Below are positions 4,844-30,078 of a stretch of DNA of 39,941 nucleotides, one piece after another. This stretch comes from a virus, in the IMG/VR virus record IMGVR_UViG_3300045825_000197, positions 1-39,941 of that record; one strand, given 5' to 3'. Numbering within the stretch: the stretch's first letter is position 1; each line of letters starts with the position of its first letter. The notes beneath the pieces are model-generated. The model did no database searches. It was not told where the DNA came from and saw only the letters and a program-made list of their open reading frames with translations. The position numbers and the translations under genes are program-made.

Positions 4844-4875
4844 AAAAGTGCTAGCCAGATGATGGTACTGCTAGC
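4844..4875 (-). terminator. Weak terminator-like hairpin after the tail-tube gene
   Basis: Two copies of the palindrome GCTAGC (4875-4870 and 4855-4850 on the minus strand) can pair, with two more pairs past a bulge, and are followed by ACTTTTACC. The hairpin begins at the TAG of the second major tail protein gene. It could cut transcription between the abundant tail-tube proteins and the low-dose chaperones. The stem is short and the T-run has only four bases, so this is tentative. Confidence 0.33.
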
Positions 4876-9891: not shown

Positions 9892-10728
9892 TCAGCGGTT
9901 GTTGCGCTGGTCGGCCTCGTACGCGTCATACGCGTCGGGGTTGGCTGAGAACAGAGCCGTGACGGCCTGCTCCTGGGACAGGCTTGAACCTGACTTGACG
10001 ACAACCTCGCCTGCTGCGGCGAAGACCTCGGAGAGCGCGCTGCCCTCGTAGGTGCCGGAGTAGCCGATCTCGTCGAAGTAGGCCTTGTTGATCGTGCCCA
10101 TCGAGGAGAACAGCCGGTCAAGGGTCTCCAGGTCCTGCTGAGGCAGCGTCTGGGAAGCGCGGTGCATGATGCCCGCGATCTCCTCTGGGTCTACCGGAAG
10201 GTCGTAGCTCTTGGCGAGCTCGCTGAACCCTGAGGCCTCGCGGTCCTCCAGGATGCCGGCGACCACGTCTTCAAGCTCCTCGTTGCGCTTGGAGACCTCT
10301 TGGATGGTGTCCATGGCCTTGGCGATGACCTCGTTGCGGTCCTCGTCGGTGAACGCCTTTGACAGCGACTCCATCACCTGGTCTCCAAGAGATGCGCTTG
10401 CTGTCCTTCGCTTGCTCACCGGTGCTCCGTTCTTCCCCACTGCCTGCTGGAGCTCCTGCTCCTGGTCGTTATCGTAGGCCTCGTCGCCCTCGACGGAATC
10501 ATCCGACTCGTCCACCAGGAAAACAAACTCGTTGCCGGTCTCGTCATAGACGAAGTCACCTGGCTCGAGCTCTCCTTCATCGACCTCAACGCCTGAAGCG
10601 TCATAGACAGCCATTACGTCCTCCTGACGTTTTGCGATGGCAACTTTTCCATATTGGTTTGCTGGCCGGTCAACAAGGGATACCTCGTCGATCTCCAAAC
10701 CTGAAAGCCTGTTGATCTTGCGTCCCAT
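9892..10728 (-). CDS. Capsid scaffolding protein with XkdF-like N-terminus
   Basis: 278 residues, very acidic and helical. The N-terminus reads LSGLEIDEVSLVDRPANQYGK, the 'EVSLVDxPAN' signature that normally ends the XkdF/prohead protease domain. The middle is a run of Asp/Glu and predicted coiled coil (about 108-165, DQVMESLSKAF...VSKRNEELEDVVAGILEDREAS), as expected for a scaffold. The gene precedes decoration and capsid genes. In relatives, protease and scaffold are often one polyprotein; here the protease (13959-15194) is a separate gene four genes upstream, so the signature may be a remnant of a split or a protease-recognised segment. Confidence 0.72.
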   Translation of the reverse strand: MGRKINRLSGLEIDEVSLVDRPANQYGKVAIAKRQEDVMAVYDASGVEVDEGELEPGDFVYDETGNEFVFLVDESDDSVEGDEAYDNDQEQELQQAVGKNGAPVSKRRTASASLGDQVMESLSKAFTDEDRNEVIAKAMDTIQEVSKRNEELEDVVAGILEDREASGFSELAKSYDLPVDPEEIAGIMHRASQTLPQQDLETLDRLFSSMGTINKAYFDEIGYSGTYEGSALSEVFAAAGEVVVKSGSSLSQEQAVTALFSANPDAYDAYEADQRNNR

Positions 10729-10787: not shown

Positions 10788-11711
10788 TTAGTACATCCGC
10801 TCACCTCGGCTAGGGCCGGACGGCATGTTGGAGTTGCGCGCCAGCAGCCCTGCACCGCCGGCAGCTCCTGCACCGCCAGCACTCCAGGCAATCTTCTTCT
10901 TGTTCTTCTCGGCCCACTGGGCAGGCTTGCTGAGCAGAGCGTTCTCGGCATGCTGGCCGAGCTTGGTCTCCGTCATCGGCTTGTGCAGTCCCTGGACCAT
11001 GTTCATCCGGGATGACCTGCTCACCACCGACTTGATAGCAGCAGGCGCAGCCTTGTGCAGGCTGTACAGCCCGTGCTGTCCGCCGCTCTTGGGGCCGGTG
11101 AAGCGCTGGAGCTCCTGGCGACGTGGCCTGGCGCCCGGTCCTTTGATGTGAACCAGCTTGTTGGCATGGCTGATGTGAGCGCCGGTTGGCACCAGCGCGC
11201 TCAGCCGCTCTGACCTGGGTACTGGCAACGCCACCGGGTAGGCCTTGCCGAAGACAACGACCTCCTCGAAGGGGTTGACCAGCGATGCAGCCTTGAGTCC
11301 GTACACGCCGTCCTCCTCCTGTCGTTTCTTCTTGTTGTGCAAGTATGCAACTGTTCCTGCGGTTGCCCCGGTAGCGGCGAGTATTCCCGCACCTACCTTG
11401 GTCTTGGTCTTGAACTTGTGTGGTCCTTTGACAGCCGCTGCTGCGGCCGGGGCTGCTGCAGCAGCTGGTGCCGCTGCTGGCGCTGCAGTCTTGGCAGGGC
11501 CGGCAGTAATCGCCTTCATCTGGGCCTGAGCCTTTGCCTCGACCACCGGTGCCAACTGCTCCTTGACACCAGGCTGGGCCAGAGACTTCAGGTCCCGTGT
11601 CCTCTGACGCTCGGTGTTCATTGCTCTCTTGCCGCGGGCCTGTGCTGCCTTGTTGCGTCGCGGCTTGGACGAGTTGGCCATCCATACCCCGGCCTTGGTT
11701 ACCTCGCTCAT
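10788..11711 (-). CDS. Basic Gly/Ala-rich putative virion protein 1
   Basis: 307 residues, not recognised. ATGA overlap with the upstream gene. From the N-terminus: a very basic head (SKPRRNKAAQARGKRA), an Ala/Pro linker (about residues 73-95), a hydrophobic Gly/Ala segment (VGAGILAATGATAGTVAYL, about 106-124) followed by a KKKRQEE stop-transfer-like cluster, a mixed region, and a second Gly/Ala segment near the end (IAWSAGGAGAAGGAGLLA, about 276-293). This layout suggests a protein that can insert into membranes or pack helices through glycine zippers. It is the last gene of a series with the same character, just before the scaffold gene. Confidence 0.7.
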   Translation of the reverse strand: MSEVTKAGVWMANSSKPRRNKAAQARGKRAMNTERQRTRDLKSLAQPGVKEQLAPVVEAKAQAQMKAITAGPAKTAAPAAAPAAAAAPAAAAAVKGPHKFKTKTKVGAGILAATGATAGTVAYLHNKKKRQEEDGVYGLKAASLVNPFEEVVVFGKAYPVALPVPRSERLSALVPTGAHISHANKLVHIKGPGARPRRQELQRFTGPKSGGQHGLYSLHKAAPAAIKSVVSRSSRMNMVQGLHKPMTETKLGQHAENALLSKPAQWAEKNKKKIAWSAGGAGAAGGAGLLARNSNMPSGPSRGERMY

Positions 11712-12496
11712 GACCAGGCCTTTCCGCGGGCATGCGTGCTGTTGTACTCCTCAGCACCGCCTACTCCCATAGCAGCGGTTCCACCACCGATCTCTGCAAG
11801 GTGACGACGGGTTGCCGCTATCGTCTTGTCCTTCTTGCCGTTCGGGTGCTTGATCGCGCCTCGCACAGCCTTGGTGTGCTTGGCCGCGCCCTTGAGCCCT
11901 ATGCCTACGCCGATCGCGCCTGCCCCGATAGCGCCTGCCTGGAACATCCCGGACCTGCGCTGCCGGTTGTTCTCCGGGTCGTAGTAGCGGTCAGCCTTGT
12001 CAACGCTGATCTTGTCGGCTGCACGGTCCCTGCCGGTGGCAACCAGGTGCCCAGCCTGGTTTCGCTTGTCGCTGACGTAGCCCTTGGCCCCGCCTGGGTA
12101 GTTGCCTAGCTTGGTGCCGGCATATGACCCGCCGGCCGCGCCGGCAAGTCCGACTCCCGCCGCTACGCCAACCACCCGCTTGCCGTGGTGGCGCACCATC
12201 TGGGCGACCTCTGGCTCGATCTTCTTGGCTGCTTTTTCGCCGACCCGGTGACGCAGCGCCTCTGTCTTGGCACCCGGCTTGCGCAGCTCGGCTAGCTTGG
12301 CCTGTGCCGCACGGCCCTTGTCGGCAGCCTTCTTGGACCCGGCCTCGACCTTGCCGGCCAGCGTGGCTGCCCTGGTCAGGCCATGGTCGATCTTGTCCCA
12401 GGCACCCTTGCTTACCGGGACCTGTGAACGCTTGGAAAGCTCGGACTTCTCATCGACGATGCGTCTGCCATGGCCGCCGTTCACCAGTGCGCTCAT
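11708..12496 (-). CDS. Basic Gly/Ala-rich putative virion protein 2
   Basis: 262 residues, not recognised. Strongly basic, helical N-terminal third (KIDHGLTRAATLAGKVEAGSKKAADKGRAAQAKL), then a glycine-zipper-like segment (VVGVAAGVGLAGAAGGSYAG, about 107-126), a soluble basic stretch with YYDPENNRQRR, and a second segment (GMFQAGAIGAGAIGVGIGLKG, about 183-203). A third, weaker Gly/Ala run is near the end (EIGGGTAAMGVGGAEEY). Overlaps both neighbours by ATGA, so its dose should match theirs. Likely a virion or ejection component by context; no enzymatic motif was seen. Confidence 0.7.
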   Translation of the reverse strand: MSALVNGGHGRRIVDEKSELSKRSQVPVSKGAWDKIDHGLTRAATLAGKVEAGSKKAADKGRAAQAKLAELRKPGAKTEALRHRVGEKAAKKIEPEVAQMVRHHGKRVVGVAAGVGLAGAAGGSYAGTKLGNYPGGAKGYVSDKRNQAGHLVATGRDRAADKISVDKADRYYDPENNRQRRSGMFQAGAIGAGAIGVGIGLKGAAKHTKAVRGAIKHPNGKKDKTIAATRRHLAEIGGGTAAMGVGGAEEYNSTHARGKAWS

Positions 12497-13959
12497 TGGT
12501 TCACTCCAGGGTGAATGTTGATCTTCAGGTTCACAGGTGAGTAGCCGGATCTGCCCTGGTTACGAGCATGTCCTAGCAACAGCATGCCAGTTGTCGTGGC
12601 AACTGCCGGACGAATCGCCGCAGGCACCTTGTTGACGGCCGCGTTGACCGCTCTGACCTGGCGCATCTGACGCTCACCACGGGCAGTACCTCGAGCCAGT
12701 GCTCCGTATGCGCTCTGGGCCAGCCGGATCGCATCAGCAGTGGTCCTTGCGTCCTTGCTGGTGGCCCGCTTCAGGCCAAGCCCAAGTGCGCGTCCGAGCA
12801 TCGGGGAACGTCCCAGCCCGAAGCCGACCAGACCAAGTCCTGCTCCGGCGGTAAGGATGCGCCGGCCGGTGTGCTGACGCTGCTGGACGAACAGGGCCTT
12901 TTCCAGTGGTACAGCAGACTCACGCGCCCAGGCCTTCGTAGCCTTCCGCTGCTGGTGCTTCTGCGCGGCGCCGATGGTGGCCAGGCCTCCGGCCACTCCT
13001 ACCGCACCGGTGGCAAGGCTGCCGGTGGTCCCGGTGTGGGTCCACGACAAGGTCCGCTTCATCTTGGCGCCTGGCAGGTCGGTGGGCATGTTCCGGAAGA
13101 ACTTCCGGTAGCGCTGGTCGCCGATCTCTGCGTTCTTCGGAAGCTGGTGCTTGGGCGAGTTCTCCCGGTAGTCCTTCAGCCTGGCCTTCAGCTTCGGGTC
13201 TGCCTCGATCTTGGTCTTGGCCTTTTTGTCCCAGTGCTTGATGTTGCCAGCCATGTGATAGCCGGCTCCGGTGGCAGCTCCACCGGCAATACCAACGTCA
13301 GCGTCATGGTGGGTGACCGTGTCAAGCTTCTCCACCGGTGCCTTGTTCGGCTGTGCGCTGGACCTGATGCCGTACCAGAGGGCTGGCACTGCCACTGCTG
13401 CGCCAGCACCGCGAAGCCTGCCCTTGCCGGTCTCTCCGATGATCTTCTTGGCCTGTTTTACCTTCAGGTTGCTGACGACCCGTTCCTTGTTCTGGACCAG
13501 CTCCTGAGCATGGGCCTTGACCTTGGCCTTGTGCTCCAGGCTGGTGTACTGGGTCTGGTTGCCAGGTGGCACTCCACCATTGCGCCGGTCGCGTGCTCCT
13601 TGCCTACCGCCAGCCGGGTGAACATAATCCTTCTTGGGACCGTTTCCCCCGCTTTTCTGGCCCTGGTACGGCGTCTTGTGAGGTGACGGCTTGGTTGCTA
13701 CGTAGTTGTTGGTGGCACCCTTGGGCATCTTGTCCCGAGGATCGGCAGCAGGCATCCCGGCCCTGGTGAACCCGTACGGCTTGGAGGCGGTAGTGATCTT
13801 CTTGTCGTAGTGCCGCTCATGGATCGCGTTGATCCGGTCGCCAAGAGGGTGGGCCGCCGTGCCGACATAGGCAGCTCCGGCACCAACAGCAGTCAGGCCG
13901 TACGACCCATGGCTGTCCCGAACTATCGGCTTGCCGTTGCTGTCCCGGTTGAAGGCCAT
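12493..13959 (-). CDS. Basic multi-glycine-zipper putative virion protein 3
   Basis: 488 residues, not recognised. The first 160 residues are polar and rich in Pro, Gly, Lys and Asn, probably disordered. At least five Gly/Ala hydrophobic segments follow or precede Lys/Arg-rich loops: YGLTAVGAGAAYVGTAA (about 20), GAGAAVAVPALWYGI (about 185), VGIAGGAATGAGYHMAG (about 222), SLATGAVGVAGGLATIGAA (about 317) and ILTAGAGLGLVGFGLG (about 370). The pattern of short Gly-rich helices between basic loops is like phage proteins that enter the host membrane with the DNA. It overlaps its upstream neighbour by TGATG and the downstream one by ATGA. Confidence 0.7.
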   Translation of the reverse strand: MAFNRDSNGKPIVRDSHGSYGLTAVGAGAAYVGTAAHPLGDRINAIHERHYDKKITTASKPYGFTRAGMPAADPRDKMPKGATNNYVATKPSPHKTPYQGQKSGGNGPKKDYVHPAGGRQGARDRRNGGVPPGNQTQYTSLEHKAKVKAHAQELVQNKERVVSNLKVKQAKKIIGETGKGRLRGAGAAVAVPALWYGIRSSAQPNKAPVEKLDTVTHHDADVGIAGGAATGAGYHMAGNIKHWDKKAKTKIEADPKLKARLKDYRENSPKHQLPKNAEIGDQRYRKFFRNMPTDLPGAKMKRTLSWTHTGTTGSLATGAVGVAGGLATIGAAQKHQQRKATKAWARESAVPLEKALFVQQRQHTGRRILTAGAGLGLVGFGLGRSPMLGRALGLGLKRATSKDARTTADAIRLAQSAYGALARGTARGERQMRQVRAVNAAVNKVPAAIRPAVATTTGMLLLGHARNQGRSGYSPVNLKINIHPGVNQ

Positions 13960-15194
13960 CAGTAGCCCATCAGCTCATCAACATCCTGGGACTTGCGCAT
14001 GCCCTTGCCATGGATGCTGAACCCGCCACGGCCGCCGCCAGCCTCACCCTTGCGTACCAGAGACCACTCGTTCTCGTCGTGGATCTTCATGCCGATCCAC
14101 CAGCCGCGGTTGAAGTCCTGCGGCAGGCCCATCTTGGCTACCTTGTCATCGGTGAAGACCATCGACTCGACGATGTCTGCCACCTTGACCGGCCGGTCGA
14201 ACGGGTCTCGGGTGTGCATGGCCCCGCCGACCCGGGACTTCAGCATGTACTCGTACGCCGCGTCCTCCAGGTCAGCGGTGTCGATGTAGTCGCCCTGCTT
14301 GTCGACTACCGGCTGTCCGTTGAACTTGGACACCGAGGCCCATCCGAATGCCAGGTGCTTGTCGTCGTCGAACTTGGAGAAGGTGCCCACCCACTCGATG
14401 TCAGAGGCATCCTTCTTGACCGCGGCTGGCTTTGCCGCAGCCGGCTTGGCCGTAGTAGGCATGGCCTTGCCCTTGGCCGCCGCAGGACCTGCTGCCTGTG
14501 CTGCTCCGGCAGGTGCCCCAGGCAGTGGCTCGGTGGCTACCTGTCCGGTGGCCTGCAGCTTGCCGGCGATGTTGCCGCCCTGCTTCTTGGTACCGGCTAC
14601 CACGTCCTTGAAGTCAGGCAGCAGCCCGGTGGTCAGCGGCTTGAAGGCAGCCGCCTTGGTCCCGAGCTGTCGTCCGGTTGGCTTGAGCTTCTTCTTGTCG
14701 AGCTGGGAGAGGGTGCCTCCGATAGCAACATCACCGACGTTGTTCAGCGTGTGCAGCCCGAGAGCTCCCATCGCCAGCCCTGCGCCGACTTTGCCCTTCT
14801 TGGCAGACAGACGCATCCCCTTTGGCATGGACTCGGTGAGCTTCTCGCCGGTGGCGTACAGCTTATTGGCCAGCTTGCCGGCATCTTTGCCCTGCAGCCG
14901 CGGGTCGTGCATGGCGCTGCCCAGCGCAACCGTGCCAGATCCGATGCCGACAGCGTTGGAGGACCGCTCGAAGATCCCGCGCGCCTTGGAGCGCTGGCCC
15001 TGGGCATGCACGTCAGCCTGGTCAGGGCTGATCTTGACCACGGTCTCCCAGATCACGTCAGGGTCAACCGAGTCCCCGTAGAGGGTCTTGCAGAGCGTGA
15101 CGAACTCAGGGGTAGCACCTGCGCGGATGATGTCTGATCTGGCTGCCATGTGGCTCATCTTCTCACTCGATGGTTGGAGCATACGTGTAGACAC
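13959..15194 (-). CDS. XkdF-like phage serine protease (capsid maturation protease) with a Gly/Ala-rich N-terminal domain
   Basis: 411 residues. The GTG at 15194 has AAGGA six bases upstream and is preferred over later ATGs. The C-terminal region (about 280-405) has the features of the XkdF-like putative serine protease family (Peptidase_S78_2): LAFGWASVSKF, QGDYIDTADLEDAAYEYML, then a likely catalytic His in GGAMHTRD (H327), VADIVESMVFTDD, GWWIGMKIHDENEWSLVRKGE, and FSIHGKG with a likely catalytic Ser (S393). The family cleaves scaffold and prohead proteins. The N-terminal 270 residues are unusual for the family, with two Gly/Ala hydrophobic segments (about 82-96 and 137-161) and an Ala/Pro linker (about 225-265). 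This links the protease to the surrounding glycine-zipper proteins. Confidence 0.78.
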   Translation of the reverse strand: MSTRMLQPSSEKMSHMAARSDIIRAGATPEFVTLCKTLYGDSVDPDVIWETVVKISPDQADVHAQGQRSKARGIFERSSNAVGIGSGTVALGSAMHDPRLQGKDAGKLANKLYATGEKLTESMPKGMRLSAKKGKVGAGLAMGALGLHTLNNVGDVAIGGTLSQLDKKKLKPTGRQLGTKAAAFKPLTTGLLPDFKDVVAGTKKQGGNIAGKLQATGQVATEPLPGAPAGAAQAAGPAAAKGKAMPTTAKPAAAKPAAVKKDASDIEWVGTFSKFDDDKHLAFGWASVSKFNGQPVVDKQGDYIDTADLEDAAYEYMLKSRVGGAMHTRDPFDRPVKVADIVESMVFTDDKVAKMGLPQDFNRGWWIGMKIHDENEWSLVRKGEAGGGRGGFSIHGKGMRKSQDVDELMGY

Positions 15195-15196
15195 GA

Positions 15197-18100
15197 TCAG
15201 TCCTTGGAATAGAGCGGGTTTTCCATGCTGTACTGCTGGTAGAGCGCCCTGTAATGCCGCACGTCGTTGTGCGAGTCCTGGGCAGACCAGCCGGACTCGT
15301 CGTCAATGTCAACCGCGTCCCTAGTACTGGCGATATCTACCAGCTTGTACTTGTTCTGCCACTCCAGGGACAGTGGCCTGTCGATGTTGACCGGGATGTT
15401 CCGCTGCATCTGGATGATGACAAGAGGGTCGATCGGCTTGGTGGCGTTGCCCTTCAGCTTCCAGGTGATGAAGTCCTCTTCGCCAGGAAGAAGGTGATGG
15501 TCCTCGTCCATGGCAACCATCTTGAAGTAGGACATGTCAGGATGCTGATGCTTGATCTTCTTGATCATCCCGGCCAGCTTGATGTCGTCCTCGCCCTCGT
15601 TCGGGCCGATCCTGGTCTTGATGGTGCCAAGGTCGTCCAGGCCGTTCGCCTCGGCCTGCTGCTGGATCAGCCTCTTCATGGCTGTCAGCGCCTCGTCAGA
15701 GCTGTACGTGTTCATCTCGAGCAGCTCTGTAGCAGCACCAGAGTGCAGCCTTCCGTTCTTCAGCCTTGCCGGGTCGTAGCCGATGATCTGACCTGCTACC
15801 TGGCCGTCGACTATCGCGTTGAACTGCTTCTGGGTCATCACCTTGTAGTCGCTGTAGTCGTCCAGCACGTTGTGGACTGCAGGCTCGTTGTGAGTGCGCT
15901 CTGCATCTGGCGGCTCTTCCCTGAGCCTGCGAGCCACCGCAGCTCGCACCGCCTTGATCCGCTCCGGGCGACTGCGGGCTACCGGGGAGCGCAGTACAGG
16001 CTCACGGCTGGTGACAGTTCCAAGGGTTGTGTCGAACAGGAACATCTCCCGGTCGGCAACAGCAGCGGCTTCACGCTGGTTCCTGGCTGAGACAGCAGCA
16101 CGCATCTTGGACTGCTTGGAACGCAGGTCCTGTCCTCGCCTCTGCCGGGAGGCCCGCATCTGACGTGGTGTCTTGCCTGCCCCTCCGGCTGCAGCAGACG
16201 GGGAGACCAGCGTCAGCCGGCGAGACTTGTCTGCGAACTGGCCCTCGTCGTCGCGCGGATGCTCCTGGTTGAAGTGCAGCCGGTCGATAGGCGCCAGTGC
16301 CAGTGCTGACTTCTTGAACGGCTTGAACTCATCAAGGCTGCCCCGGCCAAGACCAGTGCTTGCCTGGATCTGCGCCGCCTCCTCCTCGCTGACAGGCTCG
16401 ATCTCGTAGCTGTTGACGAACACCGATCGCTTCTGGTCGTAGTAGCGACCAACTGGGGTCGACTTGTACATCTGGTCAGGGTCGTAGTCGTAGACAGCCT
16501 CTGCGCCGGCATTACCTGCACCCCGCTCACCGCTCTCGTCACTGCTTACCCTGGCTCGTACGCCATGGGTGATGAAGAACTCGCCGATTGTCGGCTTGGG
16601 TCTGGGACGATCCCTGTTCTGCTCATTCCAGACATCCCTGCGGACATGCACCACGAGCGATATGGAGTCGTCGGAGTAGTCCTGAAGCTTGTTCCTCTCA
16701 ATATTGATCAGCTCGTTATAGTCGATGTTGCCGTCAGGACCCTCTGCCATCGACTCTGCTATCGACTCTTGCAGCTCCTCCTCGCTAGCGGCATGGTAGA
16801 TGTCCTCGTCGTCATAGGACTGTACGAGTGGCTGGTCCTCCTCAGGTATCTCTGTGTCGCCGTATACAGCCAGATGGGCAGCCCTGGCCATGTGCTCACG
16901 CACACCTACCGCGTTGCTGGTCGGGTCGTCGTCTGCGGTGGACCAGTCAGCATCCATCGCCGCACGCTTCAGCTCGTACATCCGGAACAGCCGCACGTCC
17001 TGGCGTCCTGGCATCCTGGTCCTGATATGCGTCTCGTCATCTGCTGAGGTGTAGAACACCCGCGGATCAGGTAGCTCGTCATAGTGGCCGTACCCTGTGT
17101 GCGACATGCGTAGGGCATTGTCAGCATTCGGGTCATCCGGCTCACTCGGTGCTGGCGGGGCCTCGGGGTTCTTCTTTCGGTATTCCTTGACCGAAGCTGC
17201 ACGCGCTGCGGCTACTCGCGTAGCACTGCGACGGGCTACTGCCCGCCTCTTTACCGGCGTTCTGGCAACTGGCTCGGTGACAAACCCTTCAGACCTGGAT
17301 GCTGCTGCTTTTGCCTCGGCCTCCTTCGCTCTGACGACTCTGGCTTTGTTTGCCGCGGCTACCCGTGCACGCTGTTCCTTGCTGCGGTTGGTTCGCCTGA
17401 TCCTCCCAGCCCTGGCACTACGTCCAGACTGCTCCTTCGGCTGCTCAGGGTCTGCTTCCTGGTGAACGCCGGCAACGTTGCTCGGGGCAGCCTGGCCACC
17501 CATGCCCTTCCACTCGCGCAGCTGGGCCAGGATGTTCGGCTGCACCACAGCACCTGGGATCGCTCGCGGCCGATCCGGTGCGTTGGTCCAGCGACCATCG
17601 GCAGTACGAGGGTGGTCTTCCTCCTCGTACTCGTAGTCAGGCTCCCGGGCAGCGGCAAGCGCGGCCTTGGCAACATCAGTATTGGCGACCTCTAGCTCGA
17701 CGGTCTTGGAGACAAAGGTCAGCAGCGCCCTGTCCGCCGCGTCGGTCAGAATGAGAGGATTCGTCTTCGGGTCGATAGCAAGAGAGACATAACGTCCCAT
17801 CTCTTTGCCCGGAACGCCGAAGACTGCAGCTGCTCGAGATGCCGCAACTGAAGGGCTAACGCCTTTGGACACAGCTGTCCGGTAGACATGCAACGCTCCC
17901 TGCTCGGCATCGTCGAAGAAGTCACGCACAAACAGTCCGGCATAGCCAGCCTCCATCGAGTGAGCAGCTGCATCTACCACCAGTCCGGCAACTGCCGCTC
18001 TGGCCGAGCCGAGAGTGCTCACCAGTCCCATCTCTGACGGCACCGCTCCCTTAGAGACTATCCCGCAGGCAGCAGCACCAGCACGGTGAGCGGCCAGCAG

Positions 18101-18208
18101 AGTAGCTCCCAGGTCTCCGGCTGCGTTGCCGTCAGGCTGCAGCAGGGCAAGCACCACGGCGTCAGGGTCAGTCGTGGCTCTGGTCGGGGCCCACCACCGG
18201 TCAACCAC
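15197..18208 (-). CDS. Large putative virion protein, unknown, with HPRxxxGRF-type motifs
   Basis: 1,003 residues. The N-terminal 180 residues are helical and Ala-rich (GYAGLFVRDFFDDAEQ...SVAASRAAAVFGVPGKEMGRYVSLAIDP), a type I associate with actinophage head proteins encoded near the portal, without a named function. A disordered basic region follows. Two copies of a short motif, HPRTADGRW (H199) and HPRDDEGQF (H650), split the protein; a variant is in the next gene upstream. The C-terminal part (about 770-1003) looks globular, with mixed strands. The start is a GTG at 18208 with no good ribosome site, and the frame is the same as the upstream gene, separated by one TAG. Role unknown; a packaged or MuF-like head protein is a guess. 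Confidence 0.65.
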   Translation of the reverse strand: MVDRWWAPTRATTDPDAVVLALLQPDGNAAGDLGATLLAAHRAGAAACGIVSKGAVPSEMGLVSTLGSARAAVAGLVVDAAAHSMEAGYAGLFVRDFFDDAEQGALHVYRTAVSKGVSPSVAASRAAAVFGVPGKEMGRYVSLAIDPKTNPLILTDAADRALLTFVSKTVELEVANTDVAKAALAAAREPDYEYEEEDHPRTADGRWTNAPDRPRAIPGAVVQPNILAQLREWKGMGGQAAPSNVAGVHQEADPEQPKEQSGRSARAGRIRRTNRSKEQRARVAAANKARVVRAKEAEAKAAASRSEGFVTEPVARTPVKRRAVARRSATRVAAARAASVKEYRKKNPEAPPAPSEPDDPNADNALRMSHTGYGHYDELPDPRVFYTSADDETHIRTRMPGRQDVRLFRMYELKRAAMDADWSTADDDPTSNAVGVREHMARAAHLAVYGDTEIPEEDQPLVQSYDDEDIYHAASEEELQESIAESMAEGPDGNIDYNELINIERNKLQDYSDDSISLVVHVRRDVWNEQNRDRPRPKPTIGEFFITHGVRARVSSDESGERGAGNAGAEAVYDYDPDQMYKSTPVGRYYDQKRSVFVNSYEIEPVSEEEAAQIQASTGLGRGSLDEFKPFKKSALALAPIDRLHFNQEHPRDDEGQFADKSRRLTLVSPSAAAGGAGKTPRQMRASRQRRGQDLRSKQSKMRAAVSARNQREAAAVADREMFLFDTTLGTVTSREPVLRSPVARSRPERIKAVRAAVARRLREEPPDAERTHNEPAVHNVLDDYSDYKVMTQKQFNAIVDGQVAGQIIGYDPARLKNGRLHSGAATELLEMNTYSSDEALTAMKRLIQQQAEANGLDDLGTIKTRIGPNEGEDDIKLAGMIKKIKHQHPDMSYFKMVAMDEDHHLLPGEEDFITWKLKGNATKPIDPLVIIQMQRNIPVNIDRPLSLEWQNKYKLVDIASTRDAVDIDDESGWSAQDSHNDVRHYRALYQQYSMENPLYSKD

Positions 18209-18232
18209 TGCCGCTGTTCCGGCCTGTTGCCA

Positions 18233-21200
18233 CTACATACCCACGCGGGCGAGGGCTTTCCTGAACACCGCCATGGAGGAGGGTGAGACCTCGTCGCGTG
18301 ATCGGACCTGAAGGGGTCGGCGGGTCAGGGTCTTCTGGACCTTGCTGGTCTGGAACCCGATCACGTTGCCCTGCGCCGGTACTTTTGGGGCCTCAACACC
18401 ACCTGCACCTTCAGTGTCGATCGCGTATATCCGCTGGGCCATCTGCTTCTGGGCAACATAGGACCAGGCCATCTGCTTGAGCTTCAGCTCGTTGTGCAGT
18501 GGCTCCTTCTGCTCCGGGGTGGACCTCTCGTCACGGTTGTACTTGTCGATGCCATTCTGAATGTCGCTGGCGATATCTGGTGGCTTCATCGACTCGTATG
18601 CCTGGATCTGCTTGAGCAGCTGGCGGTTCTGATCCTTGGCACGGTTCTCGAACTTGTCATAGTTGTTGGACATGCCATTGCCAGAGGGACCACCGTTGCC
18701 AAGCCCTTCAAGCTCAGCGAACTTCACCGGGACAGGGTTGCCGCCGGATCCAGGCTCGTGCAACGCGAAGTCTGTACCAGGCTTTGCGAACGGCTGACCC
18801 ATCTGGATCATCGCCACGGCGTCGTTGACACGCTGCTCATAGTCCGGCTTGTCCATGCCGAGCTCCTTGACTGCCTTCTCGTACAGCTCCGGGTCGTCAT
18901 CCTTGATCCCGAGGTTGCCGAGAGCGTCTTTGAGACCTTTGACGTAGGCAGTGATCGAGTCCCTGTCCTTGTCGGAGGCCTCCTTGAGCAGGTAGGTGGC
19001 CATCTCCTTCGGCCCGTCGCTGGTGGACATCGAGTTCCACTTTGTGATCGGAAAGGCGAGGTACTCATTCTGGCTGGTCACCGGATCATTGGATGTTCCG
19101 TACTTGCCTGAGCCAAGCAGTGCGCGCAGCACAACCGGGTCAAAGAACCCCTTCATGCTCTCAGCCAGCTTGCGGTTCGCCGGCGAGCCAACAGCAATCA
19201 TCTTCTCCAGTGTCTTGGTGTCCGGGTGAGGCGTGATGCTCACCTGGCCGAAGGTGAGCGGCTCTTTGTCAGCACCGGCAAGCCTTGCTGTGCTGGTGAT
19301 GTCATTGCGCTTGCTACCGCCACCGGACAGCCCGGACTCACCACCAGCCTCCTTCAGCTTGCGATCATCCTCAGCAGCTTGGAAGGCAGCCGCTGCGCTG
19401 GCATCTCTTGTCTTGCGCCCGCCGGCAGCGTGAGCCTTTCCGCCCTTCTCCTTCGGGATATAGCCAGCCGACTGGCCTGCGTACGCGGTATGCCCAGGAG
19501 CGACATAGGCGCTGTCCTTGACGTTGGTAGCGACCTTGTCCTTGCTACGGGCCATTCCGTGGAACGCGCGGAACTCCGGCAGCTCCTGGTACTTCACATC
19601 GCGGATGTAGTACGGGAACTCGGTCTTGAGCGCCTCCAGAGCTGTGGCATAGCCGGGCCCGTCGAGCTTGTATGTCTTGACCTGCTTGGACCGCAGCTCA
19701 TCGCTGACCTCGCGGTGGATCATGTCTAACGCGTTCCTGCTGGCAGTGGCGTTCTCTGGCAGTGCCCTGCGCCGGCTGAACTCGTCCTCGATCTGGGTGG
19801 TGATGTTCTCCTGGCCGGTCATCCCCTCGATACCGGCTCCGGCAGCGTTACGCAGCCGCTCCTTCTTCATGGATGCAGTGAACTCCTTCATGCCCTTCTC
19901 CTGGTCCCAGTTCATCGCCTCCATCGAGTCGCGGTAGATCTCGGAGATGCGCTCCTTGGGAAGGTCCTGGCTGTTGACCTGCTCGGTGGCAATCCGGTCA
20001 AGGATCTGCGCGTACCGGCGGACCATCTTGGCAGCCTTGTCGGAGTACCGGCGGCCTCCACGCAGGTCCGGGTCGAACTCCACGGTGTAGACCCCGGAGT
20101 TGGATACCACCTGCATCTGCCGGGCACCGCCGATCAGCCCGGTGTAGATGTCCTCTGTGGTAGGCCCGCCGTTAGAGCGGGTGCGGACGTACTGGCCGCC
20201 GTGCATGGCACGCAGGTTCTTCAGGTCGAACGGCAGGTAGTGGTCGCCGTTTAACCCCTGGGCCTCGGAGACGATCTGGCCGCTAGCGTTGATCAGCACG
20301 CCGGTGGACGGAGGGGTGTCGCCGGCTTCCTGGGACAGTGCGGTCAGCTTGGCCTTGGGCAGGGTTGGGATCAGCGAGGTGGCCACCATGTCACCGCGCA
20401 TCCGCATAGCCATCTGCTGCGGGTTCAGGCCGTCGTTCTGGGCCTCTTCCAGGTTGTACCCGATCGTTGCGACAACCTGGTCAGGGTCACGCGGCGGCGG
20501 GGTGAACGAAGGGTCGGTGCGGCCGAATGAGTCACCGCGCTTGGTCTGGCCCTTCTCCTCGTGGTTGTACAGGTTGATGTAGGTCTGGGCCACCTCGTCA
20601 GCCTGCGGGTTGCGCCGGTCGAGCAGATGGGCGGCCTGGGTGATCTTCCTGTTGTTCGCCATCATCTTGGCGTCAGGGCGCTTCTCGGTGCCCCGGTACC
20701 GGTAGGCGGTGCGCCGTACCCCCGGGCCAAGGATCTTCTCTGCCTCAGGACCAAGGTTGCCGATGATCTGGGCGATGGCGCCGGCTGTGTGCACGTTGGA
20801 CCCGGGAGCGGAGATGCTGGTCAGGGCATGACCGGTCATCTCCATCCGGCGGTAGGACTGGCGGTCGGTGCCGGAGGTCAGGTTGTTCCACTCAGCGGCG
20901 TTGCTGCTTCCCCACTTGCCTGTTGCGTCGTGGTTTACCTGAGAGGATCCGGTCAGGTTGCTGCCTGAGAACCTGGCAGCCATAGCCGGGTCGTTCGTCA
21001 TCCGCAGCATGGCGTCATAGGCGCCTCGGTTGGCTCCCTCTGTTGCCGTGGTGCCGGTGACCGTGCGGGCAGGGTCGTATACGGCGCCGACAAGGTACTG
21101 GCCGTTCTGCTTGGTGTTCTCCTGCATGTCCCGGTCGATGTTGCCCACAGTCGAGCGAAGGGGTTTGTCTGCGTCATGGTTGCGGCCCTTGAAGCGCAGC

Positions 21201-21733
21201 CCGATGTTGTCGCCTGAGTCAAGGTGACCGGACTTCTTGTGCCTCTCTGCCTCCTCGGCGATCTCCATGGCCTTGGTCCGGTTCATCTCTGTCCGGTTGC
21301 CACCAGCGCCAGGACCAACAGAGGTCATGTCGACGAACCGTCCGCCAGCACCTCGCTTGTGCTCTGACTCGTCCCATCTGGTCTGGTTGAGAGCTCCGCC
21401 GATAGCTCCGCCGATAGTGCGGCGGATGAAGCCTGCCTTGGACACGTACTCGTCGATGATGGCCAGATTCTCCGCGATCTGGGTACTGTCGGCAGGCTTC
21501 TTGCCGTCCAGCGCCTTGGAGACGTAGGTCCTCAGCAGGTGGACTCGAGCATCAGCGGCACGCTTGGCGATGAAGGCGTTGCCTTCGGCGTCCAGAGAAG
21601 TCCGGTTGGCGTCGATCTGGTCAAGCAGGCTCTCGTACAGCCCGAACCGGAGCAGCTCGGCAGCAGCATCAGGGTCGGTGTGAGCCAGCTGCAGGATCGT
21701 GCCGGTGAACGGGGTAACTGGGACGATGCTCAT
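18233..21733 (-). CDS. Very large putative virion protein, unknown
   Basis: 1,166 residues, the longest complete gene in the window; not recognised. It begins with a helical N-terminus (TILQLAHTDPDAAAELLRFGLYESLLDQID) similar in style to other portal-proximal phage proteins, then a Gly-rich segment IRRTIGGAIGGALNQTRWDE and a motif HKRGAGGRF (H125). The rest is mostly hydrophilic and mixed helix/strand, unlike its Gly/Ala-rich neighbours, with no transmembrane-like segment that I can see. The start ATG overlaps the stop of the inserted HNH gene (ATGA) and has AAGGGA eight bases upstream. It ends in TAG, and the same frame continues into the next gene. It may be a large internal head or ejection protein; nothing in the sequence proves it. 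Confidence 0.68.
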   Translation of the reverse strand: MSIVPVTPFTGTILQLAHTDPDAAAELLRFGLYESLLDQIDANRTSLDAEGNAFIAKRAADARVHLLRTYVSKALDGKKPADSTQIAENLAIIDEYVSKAGFIRRTIGGAIGGALNQTRWDESEHKRGAGGRFVDMTSVGPGAGGNRTEMNRTKAMEIAEEAERHKKSGHLDSGDNIGLRFKGRNHDADKPLRSTVGNIDRDMQENTKQNGQYLVGAVYDPARTVTGTTATEGANRGAYDAMLRMTNDPAMAARFSGSNLTGSSQVNHDATGKWGSSNAAEWNNLTSGTDRQSYRRMEMTGHALTSISAPGSNVHTAGAIAQIIGNLGPEAEKILGPGVRRTAYRYRGTEKRPDAKMMANNRKITQAAHLLDRRNPQADEVAQTYINLYNHEEKGQTKRGDSFGRTDPSFTPPPRDPDQVVATIGYNLEEAQNDGLNPQQMAMRMRGDMVATSLIPTLPKAKLTALSQEAGDTPPSTGVLINASGQIVSEAQGLNGDHYLPFDLKNLRAMHGGQYVRTRSNGGPTTEDIYTGLIGGARQMQVVSNSGVYTVEFDPDLRGGRRYSDKAAKMVRRYAQILDRIATEQVNSQDLPKERISEIYRDSMEAMNWDQEKGMKEFTASMKKERLRNAAGAGIEGMTGQENITTQIEDEFSRRRALPENATASRNALDMIHREVSDELRSKQVKTYKLDGPGYATALEALKTEFPYYIRDVKYQELPEFRAFHGMARSKDKVATNVKDSAYVAPGHTAYAGQSAGYIPKEKGGKAHAAGGRKTRDASAAAAFQAAEDDRKLKEAGGESGLSGGGSKRNDITSTARLAGADKEPLTFGQVSITPHPDTKTLEKMIAVGSPANRKLAESMKGFFDPVVLRALLGSGKYGTSNDPVTSQNEYLAFPITKWNSMSTSDGPKEMATYLLKEASDKDRDSITAYVKGLKDALGNLGIKDDDPELYEKAVKELGMDKPDYEQRVNDAVAMIQMGQPFAKPGTDFALHEPGSGGNPVPVKFAELEGLGNGGPSGNGMSNNYDKFENRAKDQNRQLLKQIQAYESMKPPDIASDIQNGIDKYNRDERSTPEQKEPLHNELKLKQMAWSYVAQKQMAQRIYAIDTEGAGGVEAPKVPAQGNVIGFQTSKVQKTLTRRPLQVRSRDEVSPSSMAVFRKALARVGM

Positions 21734-21744
21734 GGTGTGTATCC
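21729..21744. repeat. Direct repeat, left copy, flanking the HNH gene
   Basis: The plus-strand sequence CTCATGGTGTGTATCC is identical to 22187-22202, exactly 458 bp away. On the coding (minus) strand it reads GGATACACACCATGAG and contains the ribosome site region and the ATG of the 1,166-residue gene. Together the two copies bracket the HNH gene and suggest that it arrived with duplication of this start region. Confidence 0.85.
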
Positions 21745-22191
21745 CTTTGCGAGTAAGTCGTGAGACTGGAGAAGATACGCCGCCAATGACATCAGCCGGT
21801 CAACGTCATCGTGAGCCATACCAAGCACAGTGTTGCATCCTTGACACAGCAAACCTCTGACCGCGCCCGTTTCATGATCGTGGTCAACGTGCAGTCGCCT
21901 CTTGCCAGTAGAAGGCTTGTTGCAAGCCGCGCAAAGCCCGTTCTGACGTTGGTACATCTCCTGGTACTCGTCTTCGGTGATGCCATACCGCGTCTGCAAG
22001 GTCCAATGGTTATGAGACTGGGCCGACTTGTGCTTGTGCTCGGCTATCTCTTGCGGATGATCCGCCCGCCACTTGTAGGTCAACTCGTTCTGACACACCT
22101 TGCAGCGCGACTGGAAGCCTGAAGGCCGGTCATTGCGCCTGTAGAACTCGGTCTCAGCCTTGGTCTGCTTGCAGACGGTACATGTCCTCAT
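21730..22191 (-). CDS. Endonuclease VII-type HNH homing endonuclease
   Basis: 153 residues from the ATG at 22191. The domain is clear: zinc pairs C4/C7 and C30/C33 (CTVC, CKVC), the linker LQTRYGITEDEYQEMYQRQNG, then CAAC (87-90), HVDHDHETG (101-109) with the catalytic His cluster, and CQGCN (116-120). This is the recombination endonuclease VII-type HNH nuclease common as free-standing mobile genes in actinophages. It stands alone inside the virion operon, is bounded by a 16-bp direct repeat, and its last residues (YTP) copy the last residues of the gene upstream. It is therefore an insertion, not part of the virion module. It likely cuts homing-endonuclease-free relatives at this gene junction. 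Confidence 0.9.
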   Translation of the reverse strand: MRTCTVCKQTKAETEFYRRNDRPSGFQSRCKVCQNELTYKWRADHPQEIAEHKHKSAQSHNHWTLQTRYGITEDEYQEMYQRQNGLCAACNKPSTGKRRLHVDHDHETGAVRGLLCQGCNTVLGMAHDDVDRLMSLAAYLLQSHDLLAKGYTP

Positions 22192-22202
22192 GGTGTGTAT
22201 CC
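22187..22202. repeat. Direct repeat, right copy, flanking the HNH gene
   Basis: Second identical copy of the 16-base repeat. Here it supplies the start region of the HNH gene itself, and on the coding strand it follows the TAG of the upstream gene. A third partial copy, TACACACC, codes for the last residues of the 242-residue protein just upstream. Confidence 0.85.
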
Positions 22203-22930
22203 TACGGTGTGTACGACTGCATGCGATGCAACGCGCTGGCTGCGACTCCTCCTGGGCTGTTCTGGTAGGAGGCTCGCTTCTTGCGAGCGTACTCGCCTGA
22301 GAGCTCAGAAACGCCTCCTGCCGTTCCAGCCGCGAGAGCGGCGTTCTCAGCCCGGCTAGGGGTGATATGACGCAAACCCTTGACTTTGGCCATCCGTGCA
22401 GCCACACGCGGGCTCTTGGAGGCCAGCAGCCCTGCTGCGCCCGCAGTGGCTCCTGCAAGGCCGATGTTGCGGGAAACCTCGCTCGCATCTGCCCTCCGGT
22501 GCCACTTCTCGCCCTTCTTGCCGCCGGCCGCGATGTATCTGGCCTCGTATGCCTTCATCCTGGTCTCCCGGTCCAGCTCTTTGGGAAGCCGTCCCTGGGT
22601 GCCGTGGATCGCGGTGAGCTTCTTGGCGTCGTCATCGCTCATCGTGGTTTCGACCTTGCCGATGACGGACTTCATCACCTTAGGCAGGTACTGCGGCTGG
22701 CGAAGGGTGTGGCCGATCTGCTTACTGCCAGCCTTGTGCTCCCATTTGCGGTCCAACATCTGCATTTTGGCCCGGAAGACCCTCTTCTTGGTGGCCGGCT
22801 GGCTGGGCATGTCCATCCGGTGCGAGAAGTTCTCCAAGGACTGCAGGAACGGCTTGCTCGTCTGCGCTTTCATCACGTCCTTGTCGCCTCGGGTCACGCT
22901 GTCCCCGGTCATGCCCAGCCGTCCGGCCAT
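22202..22930 (-). CDS. Basic helical putative virion protein 4
   Basis: 242 residues, not recognised. It starts in a TGATG overlap with the preceding 933-residue gene. The N-terminal two-thirds are very rich in Lys, Arg, Met and Gln (TKKRVFRAKMQMLDRKWEHKAG), so likely nucleic-acid binding or helical. A Gly/Ala segment follows (IGLAGATAGAAGLLASKSPRVAARM, about 159-175) and a weaker one near the end (AENAALAAGTAGGVSEL). It ends SYTP. Same composition as the other members of the block. Confidence 0.68.
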   Translation of the reverse strand: MAGRLGMTGDSVTRGDKDVMKAQTSKPFLQSLENFSHRMDMPSQPATKKRVFRAKMQMLDRKWEHKAGSKQIGHTLRQPQYLPKVMKSVIGKVETTMSDDDAKKLTAIHGTQGRLPKELDRETRMKAYEARYIAAGGKKGEKWHRRADASEVSRNIGLAGATAGAAGLLASKSPRVAARMAKVKGLRHITPSRAENAALAAGTAGGVSELSGEYARKKRASYQNSPGGVAASALHRMQSYTP

Positions 22931-25731
22931 CAGATGACTCCTCGTCTTGTTCGTACAGCTGACCCTGTGCGGACCAGTCCACCACGTCGCGTGCCGGCAG
23001 CCTTCAAGGGCGTGATCCTTGGCTTCTTCGGCAGCCTGATGAAGGACTTGGCCACGGCAAGGGTCCGTCGTATCGGCGGCCGGCTGTCAGGAACATTCTG
23101 CCAGCGCCGGTGCACGCCAATGTCCTCGTGTGTGGCTCGCTTTGAGTCAAACCCCATCTGACGCAGCACTCCGCGGTACTTCTTCTTGGCCCCGGTTGCC
23201 GGAGCCTCCAGCTCGTAGCGGTGCAGCTTGATCTGGTCCTTGGTCATCGGCTTGATGCCGGAGAGCCCCTTGTTGGTGATCGGCCGCCATCCAACCCCGT
23301 TGACCAGGGACTTGCCGACACCTTTGCCGTGCGCCTGGGAGTATCTGATCTTGCGCTGAACTTCCTCATAACCGCGCCTGAACTCCGGTGAGCCTGCGTA
23401 GGTGCTCATGTCAGGACCACCACGAGGACGATGGATGTCAGCTCTGCCTTCCTCCCGGCCGGTTGTTGCCTCGTCTCGCATCATCCGGTTCTGTAGGTGC
23501 ACAGGGTTTCTTCTTGGTGCAATATGCCGCTTCTCGTGCTCGAGCGCCTTGTCCTGTCCGTGCGCGCTCTGCTGCGAGTTAATCCTGATCACTCCTCCAC
23601 CACGCCCGTTGTACGCGGCATCCCCTCCCCAGTTGTCATCCGATAGCTTGCGACCTCCCGCACCAATGTTTCCCTGGGCATCACGAGGTGTTCCCGGATG
23701 GTGCTCTACCACGGTGGTCTTGCCCTTTGGTGAGGACTGCCCTGGCCAGATCTTGCGTCCTTGAGAGCTCGGTCGCGGAGCACTCAGCGGCTTGTGAACG
23801 CCAGTTCCAGTCACATGGGGATACAGGCTCTTGGCTGGCAGCTTATCCAGCCCGGAACGCCGAAGCGCCTTCACGCCTGCCTTCGGGTCGGCGTTGGCCG
23901 GTAGCAGGCGAATCTTCTGCATCGCTCTGTGAGCATGGCTTACCGCTCTGATCCCGCTGGATCCTTTGTTGGTGATCGGTGCCCAGCCAACCATCCCGGG
24001 CACGTATGACTTTGAGGCCACCTGCTTGCGCCGGGCCTCCTTGTGCTGGATGGCCGCGTAGAACAGGCCGTTGACCCCGCCGAACCCGGCGCCGGCGGTC
24101 AGCAGCGGCACTGAGGCAGCCTTGAGCTTGCCGGAGAGCCTGGGGTTCTTCCTCTTCAGTGCCCGGGAGGCCACCGTGGTACCCAGAGCAGACAGACCAG
24201 TGGCAGAGCCGGCCACGCTAAGCCCTGCAGTGATCTCCTTGCGGTGGGCCAGCTGCTTCTTCTCACGCTGGTTCATCGCCGGAGGGCTGGCGTACTTTGC
24301 AACCCGGGATCCGTGCCGGTTGTCCTGGCTCTTTGTCACGCCGTTCCTCTTGTCCTCAAGGTTCAGCGCGTGTCCGTACCCGGCATACCCGCCAGCCTGG
24401 CCTCCTGCGAACGCGCCGATCGCGGCACCGGCAAGGGCGGTCTTCGGGTTGCGCAGCAGTGGCTTCATCGCCCGGCCGGCAGCCTTCGGGGACTTAGCGG
24501 CCACCCTTTCCAGCGGGTTGGGCCCTGACTTGGGGATCTTCGGAGCCATGCCCAGCTTCGAGCGCACTCCTGCCTTGACATCAGCCGCCTTCTTCCCGGC
24601 TGTGTCTATCCCAGCCTGCACCTTTGGGTGCTTGGCTGCGGCAGCAAGCCCGTACGCGCCGGCCGCACCACCAGCCAGCCCTCCTGCCTGAGCACCTCCG
24701 AACTGCAGGGCGGCTGTCTTCTTCCGCAGCTCCGGTGGTGCCAGGGACGCAGCAGTGGAAGCAGCAGCGATGTCGCCTGCAAACGGGATAACCGGGATGG
24801 AGGCTGCGCCCATCACCAGAGCCCGCTTCTTGGCTCTGGGCATGTTGTCGCCGCGGTAGCCGTCGAGCTTGGCAACGTCACGAGGAGTGGACTTGCGACC
24901 AGCCTCGAAAGTCTTCAGCCAGGTCGGGTCTGTGGTGCGACGGGCCGGCTGTGGCGACATGAATGCCGGACGTTCGTACGGGCCAGACAACGACCTGGCC
25001 TTGACCGGCGCCGGCATCTGGCGCAACAGCAGCTTGCGAGCAGCCTTGATCTGCTCAGCGCTCATCGCCTTGCCGAACCTGCTCGGGATCTCCCGGCCGT
25101 CGCGGCGGGTCACCCGGTCAGCCTTGGTCGATGCCCGCACAGACCTCTTGCGTCCACGGCTGACCCCGGTCGGGGTGACATGGTAGGCGTTGTGGCTGGT
25201 ACGTTGCATCAGCTTGTCCTGCGCGGGCAGTGATGCCACACCGGCAGTGGCAGCGGCAAGGCCGGTGATTGCAGCCTTCTTCCCACCGCCCATCTTTGCC
25301 TTGCGCAGGGCAAGACCACCGGTACCACCTCCTGCGCCGGCGATCAGCGCTGACACCCCGTAGTTTTGGGCCTGCCGGTGGATCGGGGCAGGATCCTTCC
25401 ACAGAGCGCTTCGCTGAGCCAGCGAGTCGGTAACCCCGTGCTGGGTCTCGGTGAACACGTTGTCCCGCTTGGCCAGCGGCTCCTTGCGGGTGATCACGTT
25501 GTTCAGCCCTACAGCGAACGGAGGGGCAGACGCCAGCAGCAGTCCGGAAGCAGCAAGAAACTTGCCACGTCCCTTTGACGTGTGAAGAAAAGCGCGCTCT
25601 GCTGCAACTTTGGGCCGTTTCCCCTTGTTGTACGCGTCCTCAAGGGCGTGATGGCTCAGTGCCCGGGCTCCGGCGACTCCGGCCCCGCCGGCGGCTGTTG
25701 TCAGGTAGTCGGCGCGCTCACGGCTAGCCAT
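22930..25731 (-). CDS. Large multi-hydrophobic-segment protein with a putative HExxH metallopeptidase site
   Basis: 933 residues, not recognised as a whole. It has about nine Gly/Ala hydrophobic segments from residue 10 to about 570 (for example FLAASGLLLASAPPFAVGL, ALVMGAASIPVIPFAGDIAAA, LAGAAIGAFAGGQAGGYAG, AASVPLLTAGAGFGG), separated by Lys/Arg-rich loops. Towards the C-terminus is HEKRH at 732-736, an HExxH zinc motif, with R759-E-E-G-R-A-D downstream, resembling the ExxAD zinc-ligand motif of M48-type metallopeptidases. A short repeat, GWxPITNKGxSGI, occurs at W583 and W815, either side of the HExxH region. The likely role is a virion protein that enters the host envelope and perhaps cleaves a protein there; this is inference. 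The start overlaps the previous gene by eight bases. Confidence 0.7.
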   Translation of the reverse strand: MASRERADYLTTAAGGAGVAGARALSHHALEDAYNKGKRPKVAAERAFLHTSKGRGKFLAASGLLLASAPPFAVGLNNVITRKEPLAKRDNVFTETQHGVTDSLAQRSALWKDPAPIHRQAQNYGVSALIAGAGGGTGGLALRKAKMGGGKKAAITGLAAATAGVASLPAQDKLMQRTSHNAYHVTPTGVSRGRKRSVRASTKADRVTRRDGREIPSRFGKAMSAEQIKAARKLLLRQMPAPVKARSLSGPYERPAFMSPQPARRTTDPTWLKTFEAGRKSTPRDVAKLDGYRGDNMPRAKKRALVMGAASIPVIPFAGDIAAASTAASLAPPELRKKTAALQFGGAQAGGLAGGAAGAYGLAAAAKHPKVQAGIDTAGKKAADVKAGVRSKLGMAPKIPKSGPNPLERVAAKSPKAAGRAMKPLLRNPKTALAGAAIGAFAGGQAGGYAGYGHALNLEDKRNGVTKSQDNRHGSRVAKYASPPAMNQREKKQLAHRKEITAGLSVAGSATGLSALGTTVASRALKRKNPRLSGKLKAASVPLLTAGAGFGGVNGLFYAAIQHKEARRKQVASKSYVPGMVGWAPITNKGSSGIRAVSHAHRAMQKIRLLPANADPKAGVKALRRSGLDKLPAKSLYPHVTGTGVHKPLSAPRPSSQGRKIWPGQSSPKGKTTVVEHHPGTPRDAQGNIGAGGRKLSDDNWGGDAAYNGRGGGVIRINSQQSAHGQDKALEHEKRHIAPRRNPVHLQNRMMRDEATTGREEGRADIHRPRGGPDMSTYAGSPEFRRGYEEVQRKIRYSQAHGKGVGKSLVNGVGWRPITNKGLSGIKPMTKDQIKLHRYELEAPATGAKKKYRGVLRQMGFDSKRATHEDIGVHRRWQNVPDSRPPIRRTLAVAKSFIRLPKKPRITPLKAAGTRRGGLVRTGSAVRTRRGVI

Positions 25732-26014
25732 TGCGGGTTCCCAGGGCGTTGGTCATCGCAAAGTCCCCAAGGTTATCGGTCATGGACCGCTCGTGGTGGA
25801 ACGACTGGCACTGAAGCAGCGGGATGACCACCATCACCGACGCGCTGAACAGCTGGGCCCATGCCTGCGTAATGTCGAACCCGTCGTCCAGGGCGTCCTG
25901 GATGTAGGAGTCGATCATCAGCGCCGCGGCGTGGCTGTCGTTGAGCACCCGAGCGGTGACAATCCCGATGACGGCTGTGCGGGCAGCATCTACATTTACC
26001 TTGTCGTCGCTCAT
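25724..26014 (-). CDS. Small unknown protein after the portal
   Basis: 96 residues. It overlaps the portal stop by ATGA and the next gene by eight bases. Composition is normal, with helices (VNVDAARTAVIGIVTARVLNDSHAAALMIDSYIQDALDDGFDITQAWAQLFSASVMVVIPLLQ) and no cysteine pairs or known motif. Small helical proteins beside the portal sometimes help in head assembly or packaging, but nothing here proves that. Called because the frame is tightly coupled on both sides. Confidence 0.65.
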   Translation of the reverse strand: MSDDKVNVDAARTAVIGIVTARVLNDSHAAALMIDSYIQDALDDGFDITQAWAQLFSASVMVVIPLLQCQSFHHERSMTDNLGDFAMTNALGTRNG

Positions 26015-29840: not shown

Positions 29841-29844
29841 CGGC

Positions 29845-30078
29845 TTACTTCTCTTCCACGCCGAAGATCGCTGACAGGGATCCACCGGTTGGTGGAACCT
29901 TGTCAGCCTCGATGACATCCTCGACTCGCTCGATAGGCATTGAGCCGAAACCCCATCCATCGGCTCGAGACAGCTCTACCCAGTGGCCGTTGCCTGTGTT
30001 GTTGTCACCAAGATCGCGGATGAGGTAGTCCTCATGACGCTTGACCGGCTTGAAGTCCTTGAACTTTGGCTCTGGCAT
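29845..30078 (-). CDS. Small unknown protein between fibre genes
   Basis: 77 residues, acidic, with PKFKDFKPVKRHEDYLIRDLGDNNTGNGHWVELSRADGWGFGS. It begins 11 bases after the preceding fibre gene's stop and ends four bases before the GTG of the next, so it is part of the fibre operon. No motif recognised. It could be a small fibre-associated or chaperone protein; this is from position only. Confidence 0.6.
   Translation of the reverse strand: MPEPKFKDFKPVKRHEDYLIRDLGDNNTGNGHWVELSRADGWGFGSMPIERVEDVIEADKVPPTGGSLSAIFGVEEK

Follow-up and report, generated by a model that had tools for sequence, protein, structure and literature searches.

In the 39,941-base linear IMG/VR virus contig IMGVR_UViG_3300045825_000197 (hereafter the window), the interval between the portal gene and a scaffold-like gene is filled by a 15-kb block of genes. 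We consider it rather probable that the ordinary portal–MuF–protease–scaffold–capsid order has here been expanded into a larger head-interior (minor capsid) module. Ten genes lie in the interval: eight phage genes named here by the lengths of their products in amino acids (aa), a 96-aa gene and an inserted endonuclease VII (HNH) gene. On the minus strand, to which all feature coordinates below refer, the order is terminase-like, two fibre-like, portal, 96-aa, g933, g242, HNH, g1166, g1003, g411 (XkdF), g488, g262 and g307, followed by the acidic scaffold-like gene, a 131-aa gene, the major capsid gene, tail genes and the tape measure gene. A first-pass annotation of the window had given the same coordinates and protein sizes (307, 262, 488, 411, 1003, 1166, 242 and 933 aa), but it counted seven phage genes where eight are listed and overlooked the 96-aa gene at 25724–26014.

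The block is real and above chance. Relatives were collected from IMG/VR by capsid (118) and portal (34) searches, and a simple gene caller based on codon usage served to map the head module of the window and of 15 related contigs. Nearly all of them keep the order portal, g1166, MuF-slot gene, XkdF protease, scaffold, 131-aa gene and capsid, with at least one Gly/Ala-Lys protein ahead of g1166 and/or the scaffold in nearly all; dozens of further contigs contain a partial version of this order. The exceptions are G018, where our own profiles did not recognize the MuF-slot or scaffold gene, and G007 and G005, where the protease open reading frame (ORF) was not picked but is present in loci L077 and L054 of those contigs. 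The portal-to-capsid interval spans ∼9–20 kb in the mapped contigs. In L239, a compact relative from a fecal phage contig (portal 44% identical), it measures 3.3 kb and consists of a 319-aa MuF-slot gene, the protease, the scaffold and a 132-aa gene only. The portal-to-scaffold interval of L239 holds just the MuF slot and the protease, which bears out the earlier view that the block occupies a place usual for one or two head genes. This two-gene stretch is enlarged to 8–10 genes in a metagenome-only, long-tailed virus family. Of 53 loci, 41 have Gly/Ala-Lys genes upstream of the capsid gene and 16 have them downstream (55/371 genes versus 17/341). The profiles built for g262, g242 and g933 drift by composition upon iteration, and counts obtained with these profiles are class counts and not orthology. 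Identity to relatives is 85–89% for the capsid, 71–75% for the portal and ∼34–51% for most interior proteins; the head-interior candidates appear to diverge fast relative to capsid and portal.

The g1003 gene (15197–18208), a MuF-slot minor head protein gene with a long C-terminal extension, lies between the portal and maturation protease genes, as do genes of the MuF minor head proteins (PF04233; SPP1 gp7, Mu gp30). Among 39 g1003 orthologues, 24 match PF04233 (Phage_Mu_F), and the canonical zinc motif CxxC...HPxCRC is present in distant orthologues. The N-terminal helical domain of g1003 (residues 28–178; 17675–18127) aligns with the canonical MuF clade in a profile–profile comparison by hhalign (probability 97%, E = 1.4e-10) and is predicted by AlphaFold as a helical bundle (predicted local distance difference test, pLDDT, ∼77–89). 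These homologies indicate that g1003 descends from MuF; the window's clade has lost the zinc motif. Unlike MuF proteins with CxxC...HPxCRC, this clade has two HPRxxxG(R/Q)(F/W) sites. Its large extension matches no named domain; long C-terminal extensions are also a feature of MuF–effector fusions (PMC5512222). The two sites of g1003 are HPRxxxGRW (residues 199–207; 17588–17614) and HPRxxxGQF (residues 650–658; 16235–16261). The HPRxxxGRF-type pattern occurs at 50 sites in 35 ORFs and at none in reversed sequences, and many g1166 proteins have a similar site behind their N-terminal domain. The N-termini of g1166 and g1003 match each other weakly by profile (50% probability), a resemblance that is suggestive only. 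In a fold search of g1003 against viral models, only the N-terminal bundle was usable, and it returned one uncharacterized relative. In the Arthrobacter phages Salgado and Ottawa (L116:7592–8713 and L117:6142–7281), genes annotated as 'RNA ligase' match the XkdF-like protease (E = 3e-9 and 5e-12), and Salgado gene 17, annotated as capsid maturation protease, occupies the MuF slot; these annotations may be swapped or incomplete.

The g411 gene (13959–15194) encodes a predicted capsid maturation protease, with PF14550 (XkdF/Peptidase_S78_2) matched at residues 271–398 (E = 1.2e-13) and 51.6 bits against a curated gathering score of 24. It differs from other XkdF proteases in that a long Gly/Ala-rich extension precedes this domain on the N-terminal side. 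No other phage protein of the block contains a named Pfam domain above its own cut-off. In the very basic Gly/Ala-Lys protein g933 (22930–25731), which has homologues in related contigs, residues 732–765 (HEKRHIAPRRN...GREEGRAD) fit HExxH plus a downstream Glu, with HEKRH at 732–736 and EEGRAD from 760. The surrounding zincin-like domain spans ∼residues 640–800 (23332–23814). HExxH and EE(G/A)RAD are also conserved in six contigs (L084, L056, L076, G002, G005 and G010); the motif falls in the portal–g1166 interval of the window, G002, G005 and G010 and adjoins the portal, in a g933 homologue, in the fragment L084. Since most g933 homologues are without the domain but have the same C-terminal tail, it was apparently inserted in a cassette-like manner. 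At motif level, g933 thus carries a putative metalloprotease-like zincin; its profile searches gave no Pfam or NCBIfam match and PHROG matches only at E = 0.25 or worse. This motif and the MuF ancestry of g1003 revise the statement of the first-pass annotation that no member was recognizable beyond the XkdF-like protease. Two copies of the protein repeat GWxPITNKGxSGI flank the zincin domain (residues ∼567–605 and 799–837), again cassette-like. The motif KSxVPGxGW, considered as a head-loading tag ahead of zincins, was found in four ORFs only and was rejected as a general signal.

The giant hydrophilic protein g1166 (18233–21733) has relatives in at least 136 IMG/VR contigs. None was found by tblastn in 50,697 phage records with two different members as queries, and a pattern scan of 84,980 species genomes (one per species), able to miss divergent copies, revealed no g1166 relative and confirmed no prophage relative of the family in bacterial genomes. 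The conserved core (∼residues 320–760; 19454–20776; consensus DDHYLPFNLKNL ... GGLTxEDIYTGLxSGAR) contains nearly all of the 32 columns that are invariant across 65 sequences. AlphaFold, given these 65 sequences, predicts g1166 with a mean pLDDT of 74 and values >90 over much of residues 340–630. Foldseek returned nothing from the PDB at E ≤ 0.001; against viral models it recovered a single orthologue-like protein, A0A6J5RLS4, of uncharacterized function, plus weak matches to small uncharacterized proteins. When the PDB was searched with profiles of g1166 and g1003, the outcome was either nothing or weak coiled-coil and chance matches. The relative in L031 (3–3926) terminates in a CbxX/EccA-like AAA+ ATPase domain with an AAA lid 6 domain (E = 3.3e-16 and 9.5e-10). 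Apart from this AAA+ domain, Pfam revealed no large-polyvalent-associated (LPD) domain and no chain joining unrelated enzymatic domains among g1166 relatives, and none in the window proteins. A 1,841-aa member without a Pfam match is encoded at L200:5067–10589, while other members have 916–1,320 aa. The g1166 family is a widespread large head-region gene family, found here only in uncultivated phages, whose confidently predicted core has no PDB fold match.

We compared the Gly/Ala-Lys proteins with 500 composition shuffles each, counting charge-free Gly/Ala hydrophobic stretches of at least 15 residues as segments. Segments are far above chance in g933 (seven versus a shuffled mean of 0.48; 0/500 shuffles as high), g488 (12493–13959; four versus 0.18; 0/500), g262 (11708–12496; two versus 0.08; 1/500) and g307 (10788–11711; two versus 0.21; 7/500). 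The signal is weak in g242 (22202–22930; one versus 0.07; reached in 36/500) and at chance in g411 (one versus 0.28; 130/500), and no segment occurs in g1166 or g1003. It had been proposed that six of seven members carry a protease domain, Gly/Ala segments or both; this holds for the segments of the 933-, 488-, 262- and 307-residue proteins, weakly for those of the 242-residue one and not for those of the 411-residue one. The five basic proteins have isoelectric points (pI) of 10.4–11.3 and a summed net charge of ∼+245, to which g933 (pI 11.3) contributes +110. On a simple unweighted translocon scale, which is an approximation, the apparent insertion energy of the segments is ∼+3 to +7 kcal/mol, versus +4.0 for the best stretch of the portal and +6.2 for that of the capsid; as membrane helices the segments are marginal and no better than these stretches. 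Tail or tape measure identity of the Gly/Ala proteins was rejected, as the tape measure gene is located at 2–4003.

A channel or pore, as initially suggested for this block, would require that the Gly/Ala-zipper proteins exit the head with the DNA and oligomerize across the actinobacterial envelope. The excess of zipper-like segments in four proteins, their basic flanks, the place next to the portal and co-conservation are in keeping with such a pore, and the podophage ejection proteins gp14/gp16 also have conserved membrane segments (PMC8954989). We nevertheless regard it as quite unlikely, because the segments score like stretches of the soluble portal and capsid proteins. Moreover, searches of the block proteins against the ejection-protein and glycine-zipper families of Pfam, PHROG and NCBIfam gave no match, with no Pfam family of any kind at E ≤ 1 for g307, g262, g488, g242 or g933. 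The tape measure gene also means that a long tail can serve as conduit, so that, unlike in podophages, no head-derived trans-envelope tube is needed. What does stand of the proposed coordinated virion-internal set is its coordination, supported by the conserved order, by L239 and by MuF (PMC6316719), but not its channel function.

The high charge of the five basic proteins, beside a scaffold of pI 4.1, could also mean that these Lys/Arg-rich proteins neutralize packaged DNA like histone-like core proteins and play no part in the newly infected host; the regular charge-free segments would then be unexpected and the zincin motif left unexplained, and we find this explanation unlikely. It is very unlikely that the Gly/Ala-Lys proteins and g1166 are assembly factors only, i.e. 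helpers of the procapsid core or scaffold that the XkdF protease digests and that disappear before the head matures. These proteins do adjoin the protease and scaffold in the mapped contigs, and the protease itself bears a Gly/Ala extension, but the zincin, the AAA+ domain and the variable C-terminal parts would be unaccounted for.

For the enlarged head-interior module, we infer loading at the portal, XkdF maturation and delivery of at least some proteins from known MuF behaviour and from the zincins of injected polyvalent proteins. The MuF protein SPP1 gp7 is portal-bound, is targeted to the procapsid interior and aids infection (PMC6316719). Each procapsid takes up few copies of a MuF protein, and fusions of MuF to C-terminal toxins have been proposed to be delivered (PMC6316719; PMC5512222). 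Among the domains of polyvalent proteins for which injection is predicted, zincins are the most frequent (PMC5512222). The portal would accordingly bring the MuF-type protein g1003, and probably the neighbouring g1166 as well, into the procapsid, and the basic Gly/Ala-Lys proteins could be co-packaged through binding to the acidic scaffold or to DNA. The XkdF protease would trim the scaffold along with certain internal proteins, and at infection the interior proteins, in part or in full, may exit with the DNA. The exchangeable C-terminal parts (e.g. the g933 zincin, the g1003 extension and the AAA+ domain in one g1166 relative) might then be active in the newly infected host. The Gly/Ala segments are most plausibly self-associating helical hairpins that pack the proteins in the head, and candidate membrane segments only secondarily. 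A more elaborate possibility, which seems rather improbable, is a siphovirus 'ejectosome' in actinophages. In it, g1166, MuF-type g1003 and the Gly/Ala-zipper proteins would form a protease-processed head complex that passes out by way of the tail and comes together in the envelope or the cytoplasm.

Several points weigh against the head-interior module. The g1003 protein of the window itself has neither a PF04233 match nor the MuF zinc motif CxxC...HPxCRC, and its C-terminal parts are predicted with low confidence (AlphaFold mean pLDDT 54.7), so that no effector activity can be named. The zincin assignment of g933 is one of motif and conservation. The block proteins are known here from their genes, and their virion location is a prediction.

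The block resembles phage polyvalent proteins (Iyer et al. 2017, PMC5512222) in its large portal-adjacent proteins, zincin motif and variable C-terminal domains (AAA+ in L031), but XkdF is the only named Pfam domain among its phage proteins, and functions are spread across several proteins rather than joined in one. With podophage ejection proteins (T7 gp14–16, P22 gp7/16/20) it shares several large, fast-evolving and probably head-internal proteins. By contrast, the block phage is long-tailed with a tape measure, and its proteins show no detectable homology to ejection proteins and no clear transmembrane helices. The block illustrates how, in actinophages, a two-gene MuF–protease interval can expand to a 15-kb module for protein delivery or for the head core, and offers targets for asking which proteins long-tailed phages inject.

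The viral family probably infects actinobacteria. Of 21 related records searched, 17 contain WhiB, which is missing from the window and from G021 and G022, its two closest long relatives; among 14 control genomes, the WhiB family was detected only in Corynebacterium. The actinobacterial host assumed by the first-pass annotation thus gains indirect support for the family, and the window's own host would follow from it.

The upstream border of the block is the 584-aa portal protein gene (26011–27765; Portal_Mu, E = 1.3e-29; phrog_113, E = 5.8e-76). The adjoining 96-aa gene shares an ATGA overlap with it and an 8-nucleotide overlap with g933, and has homologous ORFs at the equal position in related contigs (a family of nine ORFs among the sequences searched). 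Homologues of g242 are 63–65% identical over ∼160–170 residues. At the downstream border, the scaffold-like acidic protein (278 aa; 9892–10728) has weak and unnamed PHROG matches only, and its gene is conserved just ahead of the 131-aa and capsid genes; the major capsid gene (8461–9459) matches phrog_1005 (E = 2.4e-83) and PF03864. The close packing noted earlier is confirmed, with overlaps of 1–8 nucleotides at most junctions; as exceptions, g1166/g1003, g1003/g411 and g307/scaffold are separated by 24, 2 and 59 nucleotides, respectively, and g242 and the HNH gene lie 10 nucleotides apart.

The HNH homing-type gene (endonuclease VII; 21730–22191; PF02945, E = 1.2e-26) had been taken for a 252-aa ORF; it instead encodes ∼153 aa, starts at 22191 and does not overlap g242. 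It is flanked by two copies of the 16-bp direct repeat GGATACACACCATGAG (together spanning 21729–22202), one at the upstream end of the insertion (22187–22202) and one at the downstream end (21729–21744) that includes the ATGA shared with the start of g1166, so that the g242 stop and the overlapping g1166 ATGA start are both preserved. The gene was found only in the window and the near-identical contig L082 among the loci compared.

A related contig of 135,953 bases (L012/L015) contains two copies of portal, g1166 and capsid ∼67 kb apart and may be an assembly concatemer or represent two related phages. Outside the block, the two fibre-like genes in the terminase–portal interval lie at 28056–29960 and 30090–31124, the second ending in repeated AGVADGKAVAA units. 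Two adjacent genes (4871–5356 and 5368–5856) both match one major tail protein family, phrog_2491.

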